A stretch of DNA of 12,450 nucleotides from Actinomortierella ambigua (Eukaryota > Mortierellomycota > Mortierellomycetes > Mortierellales > Mortierellaceae): NCBI GenBank assembly GCA_016098155.1, contig JAAAJB010000620.1, positions 1-12,450 of the forward strand. The letters run 5' to 3'. The position numbers and the translations under genes are program-made. The first letter of the stretch is position 1, and each line of letters begins with the position of its first letter. Positions 1 to 11,808 of the stretch are shown here, piece after piece. The notes under the pieces were generated by a model that saw only the letters and a list, made by a program, of their open reading frames with translations, was not told where the DNA came from and searched no databases.

Positions 1-52
<52 letters not shown>
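1..52. repeat. (TC)26 dinucleotide microsatellite
   Basis: The window opens with an uninterrupted TC dinucleotide run of 26 units, cut by the window edge, so its true length is unknown. It is followed by GA-rich sequence with an imperfect direct repeat (GAATGCGAGAGTGA and a near copy, about 71-102). Nothing indicates coding. On the minus strand this is a GA run, the same type of simple repeat found in several introns of this window. Confidence 0.97.
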
Positions 53-960: not shown

Positions 961-3607
961 ATGGCATCCAACTTTCAAGTCATCGTGGTCGGTCTCGGCA
1001 TTGCCGGCGCTGTATCAGCGATCCTTCTAGAACGGGCGGGAATCGACTATGTGGTACTGGAGCGAGCACCGCAGTTACGGCGGAACGGGACCGCGATCTC
1101 GCTGAATGCCCAGACCCTGCGGCTGTTTGAGCAGCTGGGACTTTTGGACCAATTGCTCGCAAAGGCAATGCCGCTTCGCCAGATTGTCTTCTTCCGACAG
1201 AAGAAAATGACCAGCAAGAACAAGAAGAGCAACAACAACAACAACAACAACAGCAACAACAACAACAACAACCTCCAGCGACTGACGGCCATCCCACTCG
1301 ACCAGCTCGAGCACCGCCATGGGTACCCATCGATCCTGCTCTCGCACGCCGACCTCATGGAGACCTTGCTGGCCGCGATCCCGCCCGACCGCATCCATTG
1401 GAACAAGCGCGTCTTGGACGTGACCGAGTATCGCGCATGTGTTGCCGTCAAGACGCAGGATAGCACCATCTACGACGGCCAGATCGTCCTGGGTGCCGAT
1501 GGCGCCTACAGCGCCGTGCGCCATCACATGTTTCGGCATTTGAAGAAACGCGGTCGGTTCGTACCCGACTCGGACTTTGAAGGGCGCCGAGTTCGGCTCG
1601 AGATGTCTGTGGCTGCGGGGACGGCCGAACATCTCGACCGGTGGATGTACAAGTCGCTGCGAGAGAGCACTGTCGACATGATGGCTATCGTGGGCGACGA
1701 TGGTCCCCACATGGTAATTTTTTTTGCTTATCTTGCTTTGCACTTTGCCTTTCTCTTCCCTCCCCCCATCCAGCTTTGCATGATCAGATTTCTCATCTCC
1801 ATTGTTACATCTATTTTTTTTTGTTCTCCATGTTTGTTGCACACCTGTTTATGCGCATTCTTAGGCATGGCTACTACCACTGAAGGGGGAGAGAATCTGT
1901 TGGCTCGTTGGCACCAAGCAAAGGGAGATACAGAAGGCTCGGAATGATCATGCCTTCCGACTATCTGAGTGGGAACTACGGGCCGATAGGTCTATGTACG
2001 ACCAAGGTAAAAGAAGGACACAAGAGAAACAGAATGACGAAGCGATGGTACCTTTAAAAAAAACAAGTGAGACGGATAGGCCACAGAATATCCAACGTTC
2101 TGGGACCCCACCATCCGTGTTCCCCGTGGACTGAAAACCTTCTTCTTTCTGCATACTGGGAAAAACCTTTTAGCACGAGACTTAAAGTTACCTATTGCAG
2201 GAACACTGGGAGACCTAATTGACAGGAGCAACAGCCAGGACATTGTGCAGGTCATGGTGGATGAAAAATGTTTCAAGACGTGGTTCAGCGACCGAATGGT
2301 GCTCATCGGTGATGGTGCGTGAGAAAAACCAAGAATGGGATGTACGCGGGTCAGGCGGGATGTTTGTTCTCTCGTCTTCTCTTCTCACCCTTCCCATCAC
2401 TCTTTTTCACCATCGCCATTATCATCACCATCATCATCTCTGTTTCTCTCTCTCTCTCTCCCCTTTCTTCTATCCCTATGCGTGTTTGTGTTTCCGGCGG
2501 CTCTCTTTCCTGTGGCTCATGTGCATCGTCCAACTCACCTGGTGCTGTTGGTGAAACAAATACAAACTCCAAAGCAGCATGCCACAAGGTTCGTTGCAAA
2601 CACAAAAGTACACATACAAATGGCCTACCCTGTCCAGGCATAAGAACAACCTTTTTCTGATGAAGATGTTGATGTTGACCCTTTGTGGCAAGAGGTGCTC
2701 ACGTCCCTCCCACTTAACCTTTCTTACATCCATTTGAAAACCTGTTTCATTAAGCTGATGCTCTTTGGAGGTCAAGGTAAGGGGTGTGAACAGTCTCATT
2801 GCCATTGACTTGAGAAAAAGGGAGGAATGTGGTTCCCTCCACCGATACTCAATACCCTCTTTTTTTTCTCTGGTGTGGGTGGGACGGTGCAGGTGCGACG
2901 CAAGCCATCCTCGATGCCGTGTGCCTTGTCAATCTACTACACCAGATGCCCAAGACCACCAACAGAGAAATCCACCGCATCTTCTCAACATACTATGACC
3001 AGCGGTATCCAGTTGTTCAGAGCGCTCTTCAGTCCTCCAACATGATTGCAGGCCTAGCTGCAAAGACTGTAAGTGTTCAACCTTTTTTTTTTATTGTTGT
3101 CCGACAAAGACTCTTTTCGTCACAACAACTGGCTTTTCTTTTTATCCTTTTGAGCATTTTTTTATTGACTCTTTTGTTTCCTCACGTTGACAGGGTAAAG
3201 TTGCCAATATGGCACGCAAGATTGCATCCACGTTGATCCCACAGGCGGCGATGACCTACGCGCTGGACAGGTTAATGGTCCATCGGCCCATTGCTTCCTT
3301 CTTGCCACCGCCACCGGCACGCGGCAAGGTGCTCCCTCGTACGCAGAGTACCTGGAGCGTCCATCACGCTCCTTCTTCTACCTCGTCTTCATCAACGCGT
3401 GACCATTCCATAACTTCACACGCACAAAATTCCTCTTCCACATTTGCACGGCGACCCATTGGAAGCCAGCATGGTCTAAGAGAGACTTTGGAAGAACGAC
3501 ATGATGATGAGTTGCATCCCCGACGACAAAGCAACAGGCAACACGCACCAATATCGATGTCGCAGGAGTTGACCAGTCTGAAAAAAAAAGATTCTTCTAG
3601 TACATAA
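961..3607 (+). CDS. FAD-dependent monooxygenase (PHBH-like / FAD_binding_3 type), seven exons
   Basis: Exons: 961-1713, 1865-2006, 2201-2314, 2578-2588, 2755-2776, 2893-3068, 3194-3607. Phases match at every junction and give 543 residues. The family hydroxylates organic substrates using FAD and NAD(P)H; the substrate cannot be told from sequence. Seen directly: N-terminal dinucleotide-binding GLGIAG at residues 11-16, then V-V-L-E-R at 31-35; GADGAYSAVR at 178-187 (the family's DG motif); R-I-C-W-L-V early in exon 2; and GDACHK at 335-340 followed by LMLFGGQGATQAILDAV, the third FAD-contacting motif. The ATG at 961 is chosen because it places the GxGxxG fold at the extreme N-terminus with no signal peptide. 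Odd points: an Asn tract at residues 91-104; two micro-exons over the GD motif; and a Ser/Arg/His-rich C-terminal tail from about residue 430 outside the catalytic fold. All introns have GT-AG ends. Paralogues are numerous in Mortierella-like fungi, so orthology is uncertain. The next gene is convergent and unrelated. Confidence 0.88.
1231..1272 (+). repeat. (AAC)n trinucleotide tract coding for polyasparagine
   Basis: An AAC-type repeat with one AGC interruption lies inside exon 1 of the monooxygenase and codes for seven Asn, one Ser and six Asn. It sits between the first FAD-binding segment and the L-L-S-H-A-D-L helix, in a loop that is normally short in this family. It keeps the reading frame and is too short to be an intron. 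On the opposite strand it reads as polyvaline or polyleucine, which produces spurious antisense ORFs. Confidence 0.93.
2578..2588 (+). other. 11-nt micro-exon encoding the A-C-H-K of GDACHK
   Basis: Exon 3 ends in phase 1 with G-D and one base at donor GTGCGT (2315). The only sequence downstream that restores the family motif GDACHK is the 11-nt segment after the acceptor ending at 2577; it ends at donor GTTCGT (2589). The acceptor is a tandem NAGNAG (AAGCAG), so use of the upstream AG would add one Ala in frame. The donor is weak by consensus. The call rests on exact recovery of the motif and of phase. Confidence 0.75.
2755..2776 (+). other. 22-nt micro-exon encoding L-M-L-F-G-G-Q-G
   Basis: This segment follows acceptor TTAAG (2750-2754) and ends at a strong donor GTAAGG (2777). 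It enters in phase 0 after the Lys of GDACHK and leaves in phase 1, exactly as the next exon at 2893 requires. The joined sequence LMLFGGQGATQAILDAV matches the Gly-rich loop and helix that follow the GD motif in FAD-dependent aromatic hydroxylases. Confidence 0.78.
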
Positions 3608-3756: not shown

Positions 3757-6700
3757 TTAAATACCCTCAACCGCCGCTCGAAGCATGGTCTCCGGGATCA
3801 GACGATCCTTCTCCGGCGCCAAGTTACGGAAGCATCCCAGCAGCGTCGCCGAGACGACACCGACGGCAATAGCCACGTCCTTGTGCTCCTTCCGGATCAT
3901 CAGCTCGTCCTTCTCCGCCCCTGGATGCGCCGTCAACGATTGGCACCCTGCACACGAGTACCGCGCACACCGCGCCAGCCGTCGCGTCTCGTTCCAGCTA
4001 AAGATGCACAGATAGATCGCTGCTGCTCCGACCGACGATGGACATTTGCCAGACGTCAGGTTCAAGGTCGTCGCCAAGCTAAACACATGCACCGCTGCCT
4101 CGCGCACTGGCATCGGGAGGGCCAAGGATTCACACCAGCGTTTCTATTTTTTTTTTCAGTAGCGAGAGTACCAGCAATGTCAGTTAAAAATTCACCCTGA
4201 AAAAGAAGAGAAAAAGGAAAAAAAACCCCTGGCCCTTCCCCCCCCCCCCCGCAAAAAAAAAGAGGGTACACATACCATAAAGGCCTCAGCATCAGTGACT
4301 CTAGCACCGACAGAGCTGGTCGACGGCTCGAGCACTTTGAGCATCAGACGGTAGTACCCGCCAATATCGCCGCGCTTAACGCCTGACGCAGTACAAATCT
4401 CTGAAAATGTTCGCGGTGCACCTTGATCACGGCAAACAATGTACAGGATCGCCGCCAGAATGGCGTCGCGCTTTCGCACAGGCTGTCGGTTCTTCATCTC
4501 CTTTAGCCGCTTCACTCGCTCGTAGGTACGGAATGCTTCCTCCTATTGCGAGGTGGCAGGGGTTGTTGTTTTTTTTTGTTTGTTTTTTTTTTGTATAATA
4601 ATTCAAAATAAAGAAAGAAAAAAAGGGGAGAGAACATTAATACCGCACTCCTCAACAAGGGGTACATAATCATCAACAAACAAAAGGCATCAGTTTTAAC
4701 ATACCCAGGCTTCCAACGGCATGTCCAGTCGACGAACCCACTCGCGACCTTGCAGCTGCAGTGGATCCTCTTCCGCATTGACGCCGCTGCTGCCTACGCC
4801 ATTGCCATCCTTATCCTCCTCACCAGCGCCGCCGGCTGCCTTTCTCTTGCCGCCTCCACCTTCGTTCTTACGCTTCCGCTTCTTGCCCTTGGGCTCATCC
4901 GCGTCGGCAGCGGTGGTACTGCCGCCATCTTCTTCCTTCTCCGTCACTAGCGACACGTCTTCCGTATCGCCCGCTGCTGCTCCCTCCGCCACATCGACCT
5001 TGCGCTGTCGCTTCTTTGCGCCTGACGCCGGTGATAACAACAACGACGATGACAATACAGCTTTGCCTGCCTTGCGACCAGTCGCATCCGACAGGATCCT
5101 GCCACCCTCGTCGCCAGCGTCTTCCTTCTTGATCGCATCCTCCCGATCCTCGTCATCCTGAGAATCATCGTCCTCGTCGTCGCTGTGCTGCTTCTGCTGC
5201 TTCTGCTGATCTTCGTCACCACCACCTTCAGGATCGGACAGCGACTCATCCGTTCGGTTCATCGCCTTGCGCCGACCCTTTTGGTGGCTGCCGTTGGTGT
5301 TGCCACCGTGGCTGCCACTCTTGGACGACCCATTGGCAGCAGCACCTCCTCCTCCTCCACTGCGCTTCGCACCACCCTTCTTGCCATTGGTCTGGCCAGA
5401 TGACCGGGACGCTGCTGCAGCTGCTTCGCCGTCCTCGCGCTCCTCGTCGCCACTATCCTCCTCATCCTTATTGTTATCATCACCCTTCTCCTGCAGCGCA
5501 CTCGTATCGACCACACTGGTCTCTCGAGACTTTTCCTCCTCTTCCTCCTCTTCCTCATCCTCCTCTTCCTCTTCCTCGTCCTCATCGCCTTCATCATCGC
5601 CATCGCCTCCTTCGTTCTCATCATCGCCATCCCGGTCTTCGGCTTCAGAGTCATACCCTGGAGGAGCAAGGCGACCTCCAGCACCGCCACTCCGTCGAGA
5701 AGCGGCAGTGGTGGCGGCGGCGTTCACACCACCTTCCACCACTGCCTCGTCACCTTCCTCTGCAGCCTCACGGTCGCCGTCGCCTCGATGCGTTCTTTTC
5801 GAAGCTGGTTTCTTGCGTTTCAACGATGTCGTCGCTTTCGCTGTCGCTGATGATGATGTTGATGGTGGTGGTGCCGCTGCAGCCGTCTTGTCACCAGCTC
5901 CTCCCTTGACCGCCCTCTTGGCCTTGACTTTTTTGTCCGACGACGTCTTGGCTGCACTAGCCATCGTCACTGAGTTCTTGCCCTCTACTCCTCCATTCAA
6001 CAAACTAGCAGAAGCGGAGGACGACGAAAGGGGCGAGGACTCGACCTTACTTGTCGGCGAAATCGATGATGATGTAGCCGAGGGCGCCGTTCCAGCAGCA
6101 GCACCAGTACCAGCACTGGCAGCAGCAGTAGTAGTAGAGGTGGTGGTGGTGGTGGACGTCACAGGTCGTTGTGGCTGTCGTGCATCAATCTCGCGGATCC
6201 TGATACGCTTCTCCTTGCGAGGCTTGCTCGAAGCCGTATTACCACCTTCCGCCGACTGACTACTACCACTGTTGGACCCAGCAGTCGCCGCTGCTCCTGC
6301 TGCTCCTGCAGTCGTCGAGGCCGTCGCTCCTCCAGTTATACCAGCAGCTGCCTCAGTTCCATGGCCATCACCATCATTCGACGCCGCCGCCGCTGCTGCT
6401 GCTGCTGCCTGTTGTTGTGCCTTGTCCGACGCCGCAGCAGCCGCGGCCTCGGCCTCGCGGGCCTGGTTCGACCAAGACTCGACCAACAAGTCAGCTTTGC
6501 ACGGCAGACACGATCGTCGCGTGCCCAACATGACCTTCTTGGGTGGCTGTTCATGGCACTCCGCGGTTGTAGATGTTGGCGTGGCTGTGGTGATTGTGGT
6601 CGTACCGGCGGTCGTACCGGTGGTGGTGGTGGTCGTCGTCGTCGCTGTCATGTCCACGGTACTAGAAGAAGGCGTTCCATTTCCACCACCCTTGGCGACA

Positions 6701-9700
6701 GCAGACAACGCCAAGGATGAGGCTGCTGCTGCTGATGATGGTGACACCAACATGGACGACGAAGAACCTGCCACCGCCTCTTCACTAGGCTCCGTCATCA
6801 GTCGCGATCGCTTCCTCCGAAGACCTAACATGCTGCTGTTGCTATTGCTGTGGTTCTCCAAGCCTGCCACCATCGTTGTCACGCTACCACGACGAGCCGC
6901 TGCGCTCGAGCCACGAGCCGTTACAATCGAGCCAAGATCCATTCCTCCTGCTCCCGCTCCTGCACCGCCACCACCGCCACCACCGCCACCAAGTATAGGG
7001 CGGAGATGAGTCGGCGTCGCCGGGATCGTCGTCGCAGCCACCGTCGTCACAATCGAGCCCACAGGCCCTCCCTGCAACGACTCGAGCGACGGCTTCTTCA
7101 CCAAGATCACTCCCGATCCAAACAACAGCCGGCTGCCGTCTGGGTTCGGGTTGCTCGATGGTCCCAGGTAAGGAGGCGGAGGTGGTGCTACCGCCGCCGT
7201 TGTGGTAGGTGGAATAGTAGCGGTAGTAGTAGTAGGTGTAGTAGTAGTGGTTGTTGGTGTTGTCGGGTCCTCCTCTTCCTTGATACCACGCATCCGCTTT
7301 GCAGCATTGGATGCCGAGGGGATAATCGAGACCGTTGACGCATGCTTAACACTCGCCCCACTACCACTGCTGCCCTTGACCTTGCGCGACGATGGCTTGG
7401 CCATGGCGCTGCCATTGCTGCTGCTGCTGATGCTGCTGATGCTGTTAACACCTGCTGGTGCACCAGCAGGTGCACCAGACCATCGGTCCTTTGGCGCCAC
7501 ATCCAGATCATCCACTACATCCTCGCCTTCTGGAACGGCCACGCCACCAGCGGCAGATGCAAATGCGCCAGCAGTGCCATGGGGATGATGGGCGGGATAA
7601 AGGTGGTGCGGGTGTTGGTGGTGGAGCTGGTGATCCTTGGAGTGATACTGTTGGTGGTGGTGCTGCAATTGGCCAACCGGCGCCGCTCCTGGCGCAAAAG
7701 TAGATGTCGAGCCTGCCTCGTACGCCGGTCTATGAAGCGGCGGCGGTGTGTCGACATCCATACTCATGGATCCATCCCGCTTGACATCTTGCTTAGAATT
7801 CCACGCTTAAAGTGGGGGAAGGAAAGGGGGGGGGGGAGGGAGGGAAGAAAAAAAAAGGTAAATGAGTCATACAATATAGTATTTTTTTTATGGCGTATAG
7901 CACATAGAGAAAAGAAAGCATGTCAGTACCCGCACATGCAATAACAGCAAAAAAAAAAAGGCTTTGGAACCTTACCAGGTACTCCTGTTTTATAGCCGGC
8001 TTCACGACCAGACAAAGAAGTAGGCGTCGATGGCTGCTGCTGCTCATAGCCCGGCGACTGATGTGGATCAAAGACAGTCATGTAAGTCTGCCGCGGCGCA
8101 CGACCATACACCGGCGATGGCTGGTAATGCGGGTCGTTGTGCAACTGGGCGTCGTGCATAGCCGATGATGATGATGACGACGACGGCTCTCGATGGTATG
8201 CAGGATGATATCCACCATCCTCCACAGCACTAGAGCGATATACGTCATTATTGGTCCTTGCCGCGCTGATGTTGTTGCCGCCATTGGAGTTGCCGTTAGC
8301 GCCATTGCTGCTGCCGTTGCTGACAACACTCGAACCATGGTAACGATGGTGATCCTGCATAACCTCGGGTTCCTTATGTGCCTGACGCTGGTTCATCATG
8401 TCTTGCAAGATCATTACTGTTTCCTGCTCTTCCTCGGCAAGATGCGACGTTGACTGACTTGCGCTAGAGGGCTCGCCATCACCACCTTGCTTCAGGGGCA
8501 TGCGACCATGCTGCTGCTGCTGCTGCTGTGGGTAGACCGATGATCCCATCGCCGCTCTGCCACCGTCCAACGGGTGAATCGGCTCCTCCTTGGCCTCACG
8601 CATCGGAAACTCGTGCCGAATATTGACCAGTGTCGACGCTACGACGGACTCTAGGCCCTCGGCCTCCACATCCATCGGCTCAAATCGACCTTTGCTCTCT
8701 TGGGCAGGACCACCAAGAGGTGCCGCCTGCTGCTGTAGCTGCTGCTCTTCAGGGACAATCGGACCACCAGCCCGCGTCCAATCCATGCTGGAACGAGAAC
8801 GGTGGTGATCAGGATGATGATGAATTACTGATGGTGCATGTTCATCGCGGTCGATCATTCCCAGCTCAGATCTCCGGGCGGTCACTGGGTCATAATGACG
8901 TTGATCATATGGTCGTCGTGCATCCTGGTGATATCCCTCGACGTAATATGATCGTGAGGGATGATCAAGTTGCTGCTGCTGCTGCTGCTGCTGCATGGCG
9001 TGCTCTTGCCCAGTGACATGGTGGCCAGGAGGCACAATACCAACAGCATTATCTGTTGAAAGTAGGCGCTGGTGAGTGTGGGTGGTCATTTGGTCGGACG
9101 ACGACACTGGAGGTGGTGGTGGCGGCACTCTATCAAGGACAGACTCCAGACCTCGAGGCATGGGTCGCTCGTCTACTGGCGAATAAGGTCCTTGAGGAGG
9201 AGGGTTTCGAAGGTCTACTTTGCTCCAAGCCAAGTTACCCGATGATGCGTCCGGATCCTGAATACCACTGTTGCCGTTGCCGTTGCTACTACCACCGACA
9301 TGCACCGAAGACAGAGGCTGTTGCTGCTGGGCCTGCGCAGTCCCCACGCGATCAACCTCCTTTTTACTGCCATTTTGGGGCGCATTGCGTTCATTCTCAA
9401 CGGCAGTGGCGTCCACCGTATGACTGATCGAACGCCGATGACTCTCGGGCGTCATGACACTCCATGGTCGATAGACCGCCATTTTCCTCTCTGCCTCACG
9501 ATCCTCGTCCGTCTTTGGCTTTCGACCACGCTTCTTCTTTACCACCTCGGCATTGGCTGCCATCGTCGTCGTCGTTGTTGTTGATGATGACGACGAGACA
9601 GGGACTGCGCCACCGCTGACTGGAGTCGCCACAACACCGGCTCCTGCAGCGCCCGCTGGCTCTGAATCAGCGGAGGGTGCAAGGGACTCGCCACCGCCCG

Positions 9701-11808: not shown

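Follow-up and report, generated by a model that had tools for sequence, protein, structure and literature searches.

What might a TFIIB core do when it stands behind some 2,130 low-complexity residues? This question is raised by contig JAAAJB010000620.1 of Actinomortierella ambigua (assembly GCA_016098155.1, 33.8 Mb in 846 contigs), the whole of which, 12,450 nucleotides, is the window analysed here and is called C579 among the contigs of the assembly. On its minus strand, a sequence-only reading had joined seven exons into a TFIIB-like protein of 2,371 residues. The best reading of the comparative evidence is that the gene would encode a giant TFIIB-family paralogue, representing a class conserved in Mortierella-type fungi, and not a second general TFIIB. 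Counts of family members refer to a 36-member family, composed of the window protein and 35 database proteins which share its core.

Cyclin core and lack of a recognisable zinc ribbon

The two TFIIB cyclin repeats that had been read at the C-terminus are indeed present. The cyclin part matches PF00382 with an E-value of 1.3e-21, and two PF00382-type repeats are seen in the folds predicted for the orthologues P0035 and P0024, the structures nearest to the predicted orthologue fold being those of TFIIB, several of them TBP-bound. The window protein ends just past the repeats, with no C-terminal extension of the Brf1 type. The core and its elements are located as follows.

3757..4767, minus strand: TFIIB core plus stop codon, two cyclin repeats, amino acids 2134-2371, comprising the end of exon 5 and exons 6 and 7 (PF00382; PDB sequence matches; predicted fold of orthologue P0035)
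4468..4494, minus strand: enlarged basic loop KNRQPVRKR at human TFIIB K152-G-R154, with four extra residues (alignment)
4429..4431, minus strand: R2192, the equivalent of human TFIIB R169, a TBP contact (alignment and motif)
3925..3969, minus strand: insertion CARYSCAGCQSLTAH in the second repeat, placed between its helices H3' and H4', a possible zinc site (C-x4-C-x2-C...H-P pattern)
3820..3858, minus strand: second-repeat helix VVSATLLGCFRNL, site of human TFIIB V283 and R286, both changed (alignment)

The earlier view of a general-factor core with additions has to be given up. The zinc-ribbon pattern C-x2-C/H-x13..20-C-x2-C occurs in none of the 36 family members, PF08271 has no match on C579, whereas contigs C236 and C273 of the same genome exceed its cut-off, and the residues taken to read the upstream B recognition element (BREu) are changed. 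No zinc ribbon is found in the annotated N-terminus of P0001, an Actinomortierella wolfii protein of 2,145 amino acids (the window's own 5' exon probably lies outside the contig), and exons 2, 3, 4 and 5, scanned separately, match zero Pfam families at E<=1. The TFIIB reader and linker were assessed by Pfam only.

The arginine equivalent to R169 is kept in 36/36 members, as judged by motif, a PRTF motif is likewise found in 36/36, and position 188 is still basic in the aligned rows. The substitutions R169E and R169E/K188E lower the binding of TFIIB to TBP (PMC6004067; this and the other papers are cited for the part of their text that was available). TFIIB, Brf1 and Brf2 are reported to share a conserved arginine, in contact with a glutamate of TBP, that is missing from TAF1B/Rrn7 (PMC7221094), and we infer that this residue is R169.

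The enlarged loop reads KNRQPVRKR[DE]AILAAIL in 35 of the 36 members, the remaining P0032 deviating only past the loop, and its RQP is common to the chytrid relative P0038 (Rhizophlyctis rosea, Chytridiomycota; one sequence of 184 amino acids that starts inside the first repeat). In human TFIIB, the K152-R154 loop presumably faces downstream DNA, and V283 and R286 are taken to read BREu. At the latter two positions, P0038 possesses A and H, and the TFIIB of the own genome V and K.

Beside the second helix-turn-helix, the C-x4-C-x2-C...H-P insertion is found in 33/36 family members and not in P0038; in P0030 the Cys cluster is altered. By its pattern of cysteines and histidine, the insertion is possibly zinc-binding. 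Its stretch from the third Cys to the His-Pro is longer in P0025-P0029 and P0031 (Gryganskiella, Haplosporangium bisporale and Podila), the cores of P0025-P0029 comprising 268-272 amino acids versus about 241, and the enlarged insertions of P0026-P0029 and P0031, not of P0025, contain extra Cys and His.

Relationship to TFIIB and Brf factors

The genome has PF00382 matches on three contigs, C236, C273 and the window's C579. A canonical TFIIB, which had been expected elsewhere in the genome, is encoded on C236: the hand-joined protein matches human TFIIB at 3e-85 and its ribbon is marked by PF08271. C273 encodes Brf1 (7.6e-58 to yeast Brf1), and the Rrn7-type ribbon PF11781 is above cut-off only on C315, with no match on C579 at E<=1. 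The window gene is a further TFIIB-family gene beside the canonical TFIIB, Brf1 and the Rrn7-type ribbon on these other contigs. Four TBP matches within 1.1 kb of contig C328 appear as exons of one gene; the match counts per genome are lower bounds. Zinc-ribbon matches under the family cut-off lie on C42, C412 and C33 (E 0.0026 to 0.13). When aligned, the first-cyclin-repeat introns of the own TFIIB and of the window gene (4543-4704) are about two bases apart, in phase 1 and phase 0, respectively, as might be expected if one inherited intron had slid.

Among PDB sequences, the window core finds human TFIIB chains at 1.3e-25 and Brf2 at 0.46, with no Brf1 match at E<=1, and the alignment profile A1 scores 1.4e-27 to TFIIB versus 0.08 for Brf1 and Brf2. 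A TFIIB-type core rather than Brf1, as first read, is borne out by these scores and by the phylogeny below; of a better fit to Rrn7 there is no sign in the two features checked, the PF11781 ribbon and the TBP arginine.

In a 19-row tree with eight family rows, from which long-branch rows were excluded, the family and P0038 form one clade (100/99) within a TFIIB clade that includes the own and human TFIIB (100/100), the stem that leads to the family being long (2.03 changes per column). A grouping with Brf1 had a p-value in the approximately unbiased test (p-AU) of 0.0195 (one of several tests, uncorrected), and an origin within Mortierellomycota excluding the chytrid was rejected (p-AU 5.5e-6). 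As the chytrid sequence joins the family clade, the duplication predates Mortierellomycota. The 19-row data neither demonstrate nor reject (p-AU 0.299) a sister-to-fungal-TFIIB arrangement with the duplication having taken place inside fungi. In a 29-row tree, the family and the chytrid (100/100) again join TFIIB (98/92), and human, yeast and own TFIIB are grouped apart from the family (90/77), according to which the duplication would predate fungi, a point that the 19-row tree leaves undecided.

Members and taxonomic spread of the family

A core-centred search of proteins of 0.55-1.75 times the full length yielded 22 matches of 1,352-2,518 amino acids, a search with the last 740 residues 11 further matches of 533-1,254 amino acids, and a core-profile search added P0034, P0035, two fragments, one chytrid protein and 16 more distant TFIIB/TFB proteins. 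P0035 is the short gene model of Linnemannia elongata AG-77; Mortierella species can be cultivated in laboratories. The 36-member counts leave aside the fragments P0036 and P0037, P0038 of the chytrid, and P0039-P0054, which are TFIIB/TFB proteins; P0032 and P0033 are included though incomplete. The core-profile search scored the best 7,997 candidates (those with most shared words), and no ordinary fungal TFIIB is named among the matches listed, so that absence of the family beyond Mortierella-type fungi and the one chytrid does not follow from this search.

The named matches of the full-length and last-740-residue searches are all Mortierella-type fungi, the placement of Actinomortierella in the Mortierellaceae having been checked and the other matched genera being presumed to be Mortierella-type. 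Orthologues of like architecture, which had been predicted for related fungi, are thus present in this group. Nine other cores are 67-79% identical to the window core, and several of the database entries are titled 'Transcription initiation factor IIB'.

Gene model

The seven exons on the minus strand of C579 are separated by GT..AG introns of 132-189 bases and, once spliced, yield one open frame of 2,371 codons with a stop.

11800..11808, minus strand: exon 1 as first read (MDV, 9 bases); splicing possible, unsupported and probably not real
11346..11657, minus strand: exon 2, Q/H-rich; 66% identity to P0001 over aligned residues
10205..11204, minus strand: exon 3, P/H/Y/R-rich; 66% identity to P0001 over aligned residues
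7976..10015, minus strand: exon 4, with both AT-hooks and two conserved hydrophobic islands; 64% identity to P0001 over aligned residues
4705..7805, minus strand: exon 5, with T/A/G/S/E/K tracts, ending in helix 1 of the first cyclin repeat (GREWVRRLDMPLEAW); 61% identity to P0001
4276..4542, minus strand: exon 6, remainder of the first cyclin repeat; 100% identity to P0001
3757..4143, minus strand: exon 7, second cyclin repeat and stop codon; 96% identity to P0001

Readthrough of exons 2-6 into the following intron meets an in-frame stop inside the intron in 5/5 cases. Of the five introns concerned, two are closed by stops in every frame and three have one stop-free frame each, so that not every intron is dictated by the reading frames alone. 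The annotated P0001 follows exons 2-7, with window residues 5-2371 in a single alignment of 2,408 columns (54% identity) that is continuous through all five junctions, including that of exons 4 and 5, which had been considered the weak point of the model. The proposal that an AT-hook arm and a TFIIB core belong to one predicted gene is upheld by this alignment. Furthermore, in many genera a single annotated protein contains the islands of both exons 4 and 5, and the agreement among these predicted annotations makes a two-gene artefact unlikely. The genome search with exon 3 returned exon 3 as its sole match, and exons 2 and 3 have no orthologue match at 1e-3 outside P0001, a protein of the same genus.

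While the in-phase joining of exons 2-7 stands, the first exon and the exact length do not. P0001 starts with about 145 additional residues upstream of the first residue common with the window. These have no clear match in the genome, where the search matched from residue 142 on, and in an unfiltered search against the window they gave low-complexity matches only, the best in the H/Q-rich tracts of exon 5. Exon 1 as first read is therefore probably wrong, and as the window is the whole contig, the true start with the 5' exon(s) is probably located past the contig end, beyond 12450, so that 2,371 is not an exact length.

The contig starts in a (TC)n microsatellite (window 1-52), likely an assembly break, and at the opposite contig end the TFIIB-like gene is probably truncated in its 5' part. 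On the plus strand, positions 961-3607 harbour a gene convergent with it that resembles FAD-binding monooxygenases (PF01494, 2.9e-17 on 961-1710). This neighbour seems to stop about 150 bases away from the TFIIB-like stop codon and contains an asparagine-rich tract near 1231-1272 within its FAD domain.

The N-terminal arm

The part that precedes the core contains the following elements.

9741..9764, minus strand: AT-hook 1, RKRGRRPK (motif)
9513..9539, minus strand: AT-hook 2, KKKRGRKPK (motif; region matched by several genera)
8583..8654, minus strand: conserved island LESVVASTLVNIRHE..., amino acids 895-918 (orthologue alignment)
8373..8453, minus strand: conserved island EEEQETVMILQDMMNQRQ, amino acids 962-988 (orthologue alignment)
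7075..7149, minus strand: conserved island LLFGSGVILVKK, amino acids 1340-1364 (loose pattern in 32/36)
6151..6231, minus strand: conserved basic island KPRKEKRIRIREIDARQPQR, amino acids 1646-1672 (loose pattern in 33/36)

Both AT-hooks that had been recognized, 9764-9741 and 9539-9513, contain the basic RGR(P) core motif of AT-hook proteins, making them putative DNA-binding elements, and 0 of 2,000 shuffles of the pre-core part had two or more such motifs (mean 0.0165). The strict AT-hook pattern is found in 17/36 models, namely 16 of the 23 of at least 1,300 amino acids and one of the 13 shorter ones. Homopolymer tracts had also been described, and poly-Q/T/A/E/G tracts occur in the window protein. 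Disorder of the arm, also proposed, is predicted for the N-terminus of one modelled orthologue. Embedded in this sequence are the islands ALVNIxHE, EQETxxILQxMMNxRQ, LLFGSGMILV and KRKPKRIKI, recovered by loose patterns in 24, 22, 32 and 33 of the 36 members, respectively, which look like short partner-binding motifs. On the earlier ideas of condensates and of service at AT-rich promoters, the evidence speaks neither for nor against.

Proposed function and alternative explanations

TFIIB-like factors touch the polymerase dock through the ribbon (PMC7865254). With no ribbon and the TBP face kept, docking on TBP would be expected without the usual placement of the polymerase. At slightly less than an even chance, we consider the protein a TBP-docking, polymerase-blind, chromatin-tethered and gene-selective promoter regulator. 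Its core would dock on the C-terminal stirrup of TBP via the arginine that has been kept and the larger basic loop of the first repeat, and would compete with or replace canonical TFIIB at TBP. The giant protein would be unable to use a ribbon for placing RNA polymerase II, and the arm and AT-hooks would tether it to chromatin and co-regulators. Action would take place at TBP-bound sites, most simply as a TFIIB antagonist or place-holder.

Several observations weigh against such a regulator. Six aligned family members show R185G, K189G, R193G/A/S, V283A and R286L/M, and with these DNA- and TBP-face residues changed, TBP-promoter binding might be weak or even absent. Docking is not proven by the arginine on its own, as Brf1 and Brf2 have an equivalent one (PMC7221094), and the antagonist role would be preferred for simplicity only. 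Moreover, strict AT-hooks are missing in 19/36 models, 12 of the 13 below 1,300 amino acids and 7 of the 23 longer ones. The shorter models may be truncated predictions, and some long models without strict AT-hooks have degenerate basic stretches at that place, but with seven long models affected truncation does not account for every absence.

More tentatively, the regulator can be set in time as an ancient extra fungal TFIIB class that predates the split of chytrids and Mortierellomycota, lost the ribbon, kept TBP docking as a selective rival of or substitute for TFIIB, and gained the zinc-binding loop and the giant disordered AT-hook arm in Mortierella-type fungi.

Other roles for the core have to be weighed. 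The view of the sequence-only reading, as amended, is a positive specialised initiation factor that replaces TFIIB at a subset of promoters, with the arm or its islands supplying a new contact with polymerase or Mediator. The TBP-contact arginine (36/36), hydrophobic arm islands such as LLFGSGMILV (32/36, loose pattern) and the strong conservation of the core (67-79% identity) would agree with such a factor, which we nevertheless regard as somewhat unlikely, as no zinc-ribbon pattern is found in any of the 36 members, though TFIIB-like factors use the ribbon at the polymerase dock (PMC7865254), and no Pfam domain in exons 2-5. Alternatively, the cyclin folds might no longer serve TBP and have been repurposed within a chromatin factor as a module for binding protein or DNA, in which the Cys/His insertion would form the new contact. 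In favour of this speak the altered second-repeat recognition helix and first-repeat residues, the insertion beside the second helix-turn-helix in 33/36 members and not in the chytrid relative, and the long stem branch (2.03 changes per column). The TBP-facing arginine and the PRTF motif in 36/36 and a predicted fold nearest to TFIIB structures, several TBP-bound, stand in the way, leaving the repurposed module an unlikely explanation.

Two further explanations concern the identity of the gene rather than its role. The locus might be a gene-model artefact in which an AT-hook protein (exons 1-4) has been fused with a shorter TFIIB-like protein starting from MSMDVDTP near 7767. There is a methionine early in exon 5, several database models are short (311-1,254 amino acids), and exons 2-3 are unmatched outside Actinomortierella. 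Such an artefact is improbable, as P0001 aligns across the exon 4/5 junction with AWNSKQD / AWISKPD alike ahead of the methionine, and many genera have the exon 4 and 5 islands together in a single annotated protein. Least of all would the gene be Brf1, Brf2 or Rrn7 of A. ambigua. Cyclin folds are common to Brf and TFIIB, and the VIA Z to Brf1 is still 15; yet Brf1 is encoded on C273 (7.6e-58 to yeast Brf1), the Rrn7-type ribbon is above cut-off on C315, the family groups with TFIIB at 100/100 with a p-AU for the Brf1 grouping of 0.0195, and the TBP arginine is present in 36/36 members, whereas it is reported absent in TAF1B/Rrn7 (PMC7221094). This identity is held to be highly improbable.

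Comparison with known systems

Compared with TFIIB (PF00382 plus PF08271), of which the canonical copy of the genome is a separate gene on C236, the giant protein differs by the ribbon not being found, the changed BREu helix and the enlarged first-repeat loop, and adds the Cys/His insertion in repeat 2 and the approximately 2,130 low-complexity residues before the core. With AT-hook chromatin proteins (HMGA-like), it shares RGR-P type motifs in a low-complexity region; we know of no AT-hook protein with a TFIIB core.

Brf1 and Brf2 resemble it in the family-level fold and as TFIIB paralogues specialised through added sequence. The extensions of Brf are C-terminal and provide the main contact with TBP and Bdp1 (PMC4671959), whereas that of the giant protein is N-terminal, and its core is nearer to TFIIB by sequence. 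TFIIB-related proteins usually number three or four in non-plant eukaryotes, split among the polymerases, and are many in plants (PMC7865254). The plant BRP/BRF expansion is alike in providing lineage-specific additional TFIIB-like proteins. Arabidopsis AtBRF5, reported without a zinc domain, can be likened by description only, in that it combines a linker with a single cyclin repeat (PMC7865254) versus the two repeats of the giant protein.

In the open-access literature, outside of which most subscription journals fall, no paper links Mortierella with TFIIB or 'transcription initiation factor IIB', and none on ribbon-less or early-fungal TFIIB paralogues treats the giant protein, related work being on plant, Brf2, Pol I, archaeal and viral factors.

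A conserved fungal TFIIB relative in which no ribbon is recognised but which retains the TBP arginine would, if true, constitute a natural test of what a TFIIB core does without its polymerase grip, and of whether a dedicated paralogue can contest TBP. It would also refine the database entries that are now named simply 'Transcription initiation factor IIB'.
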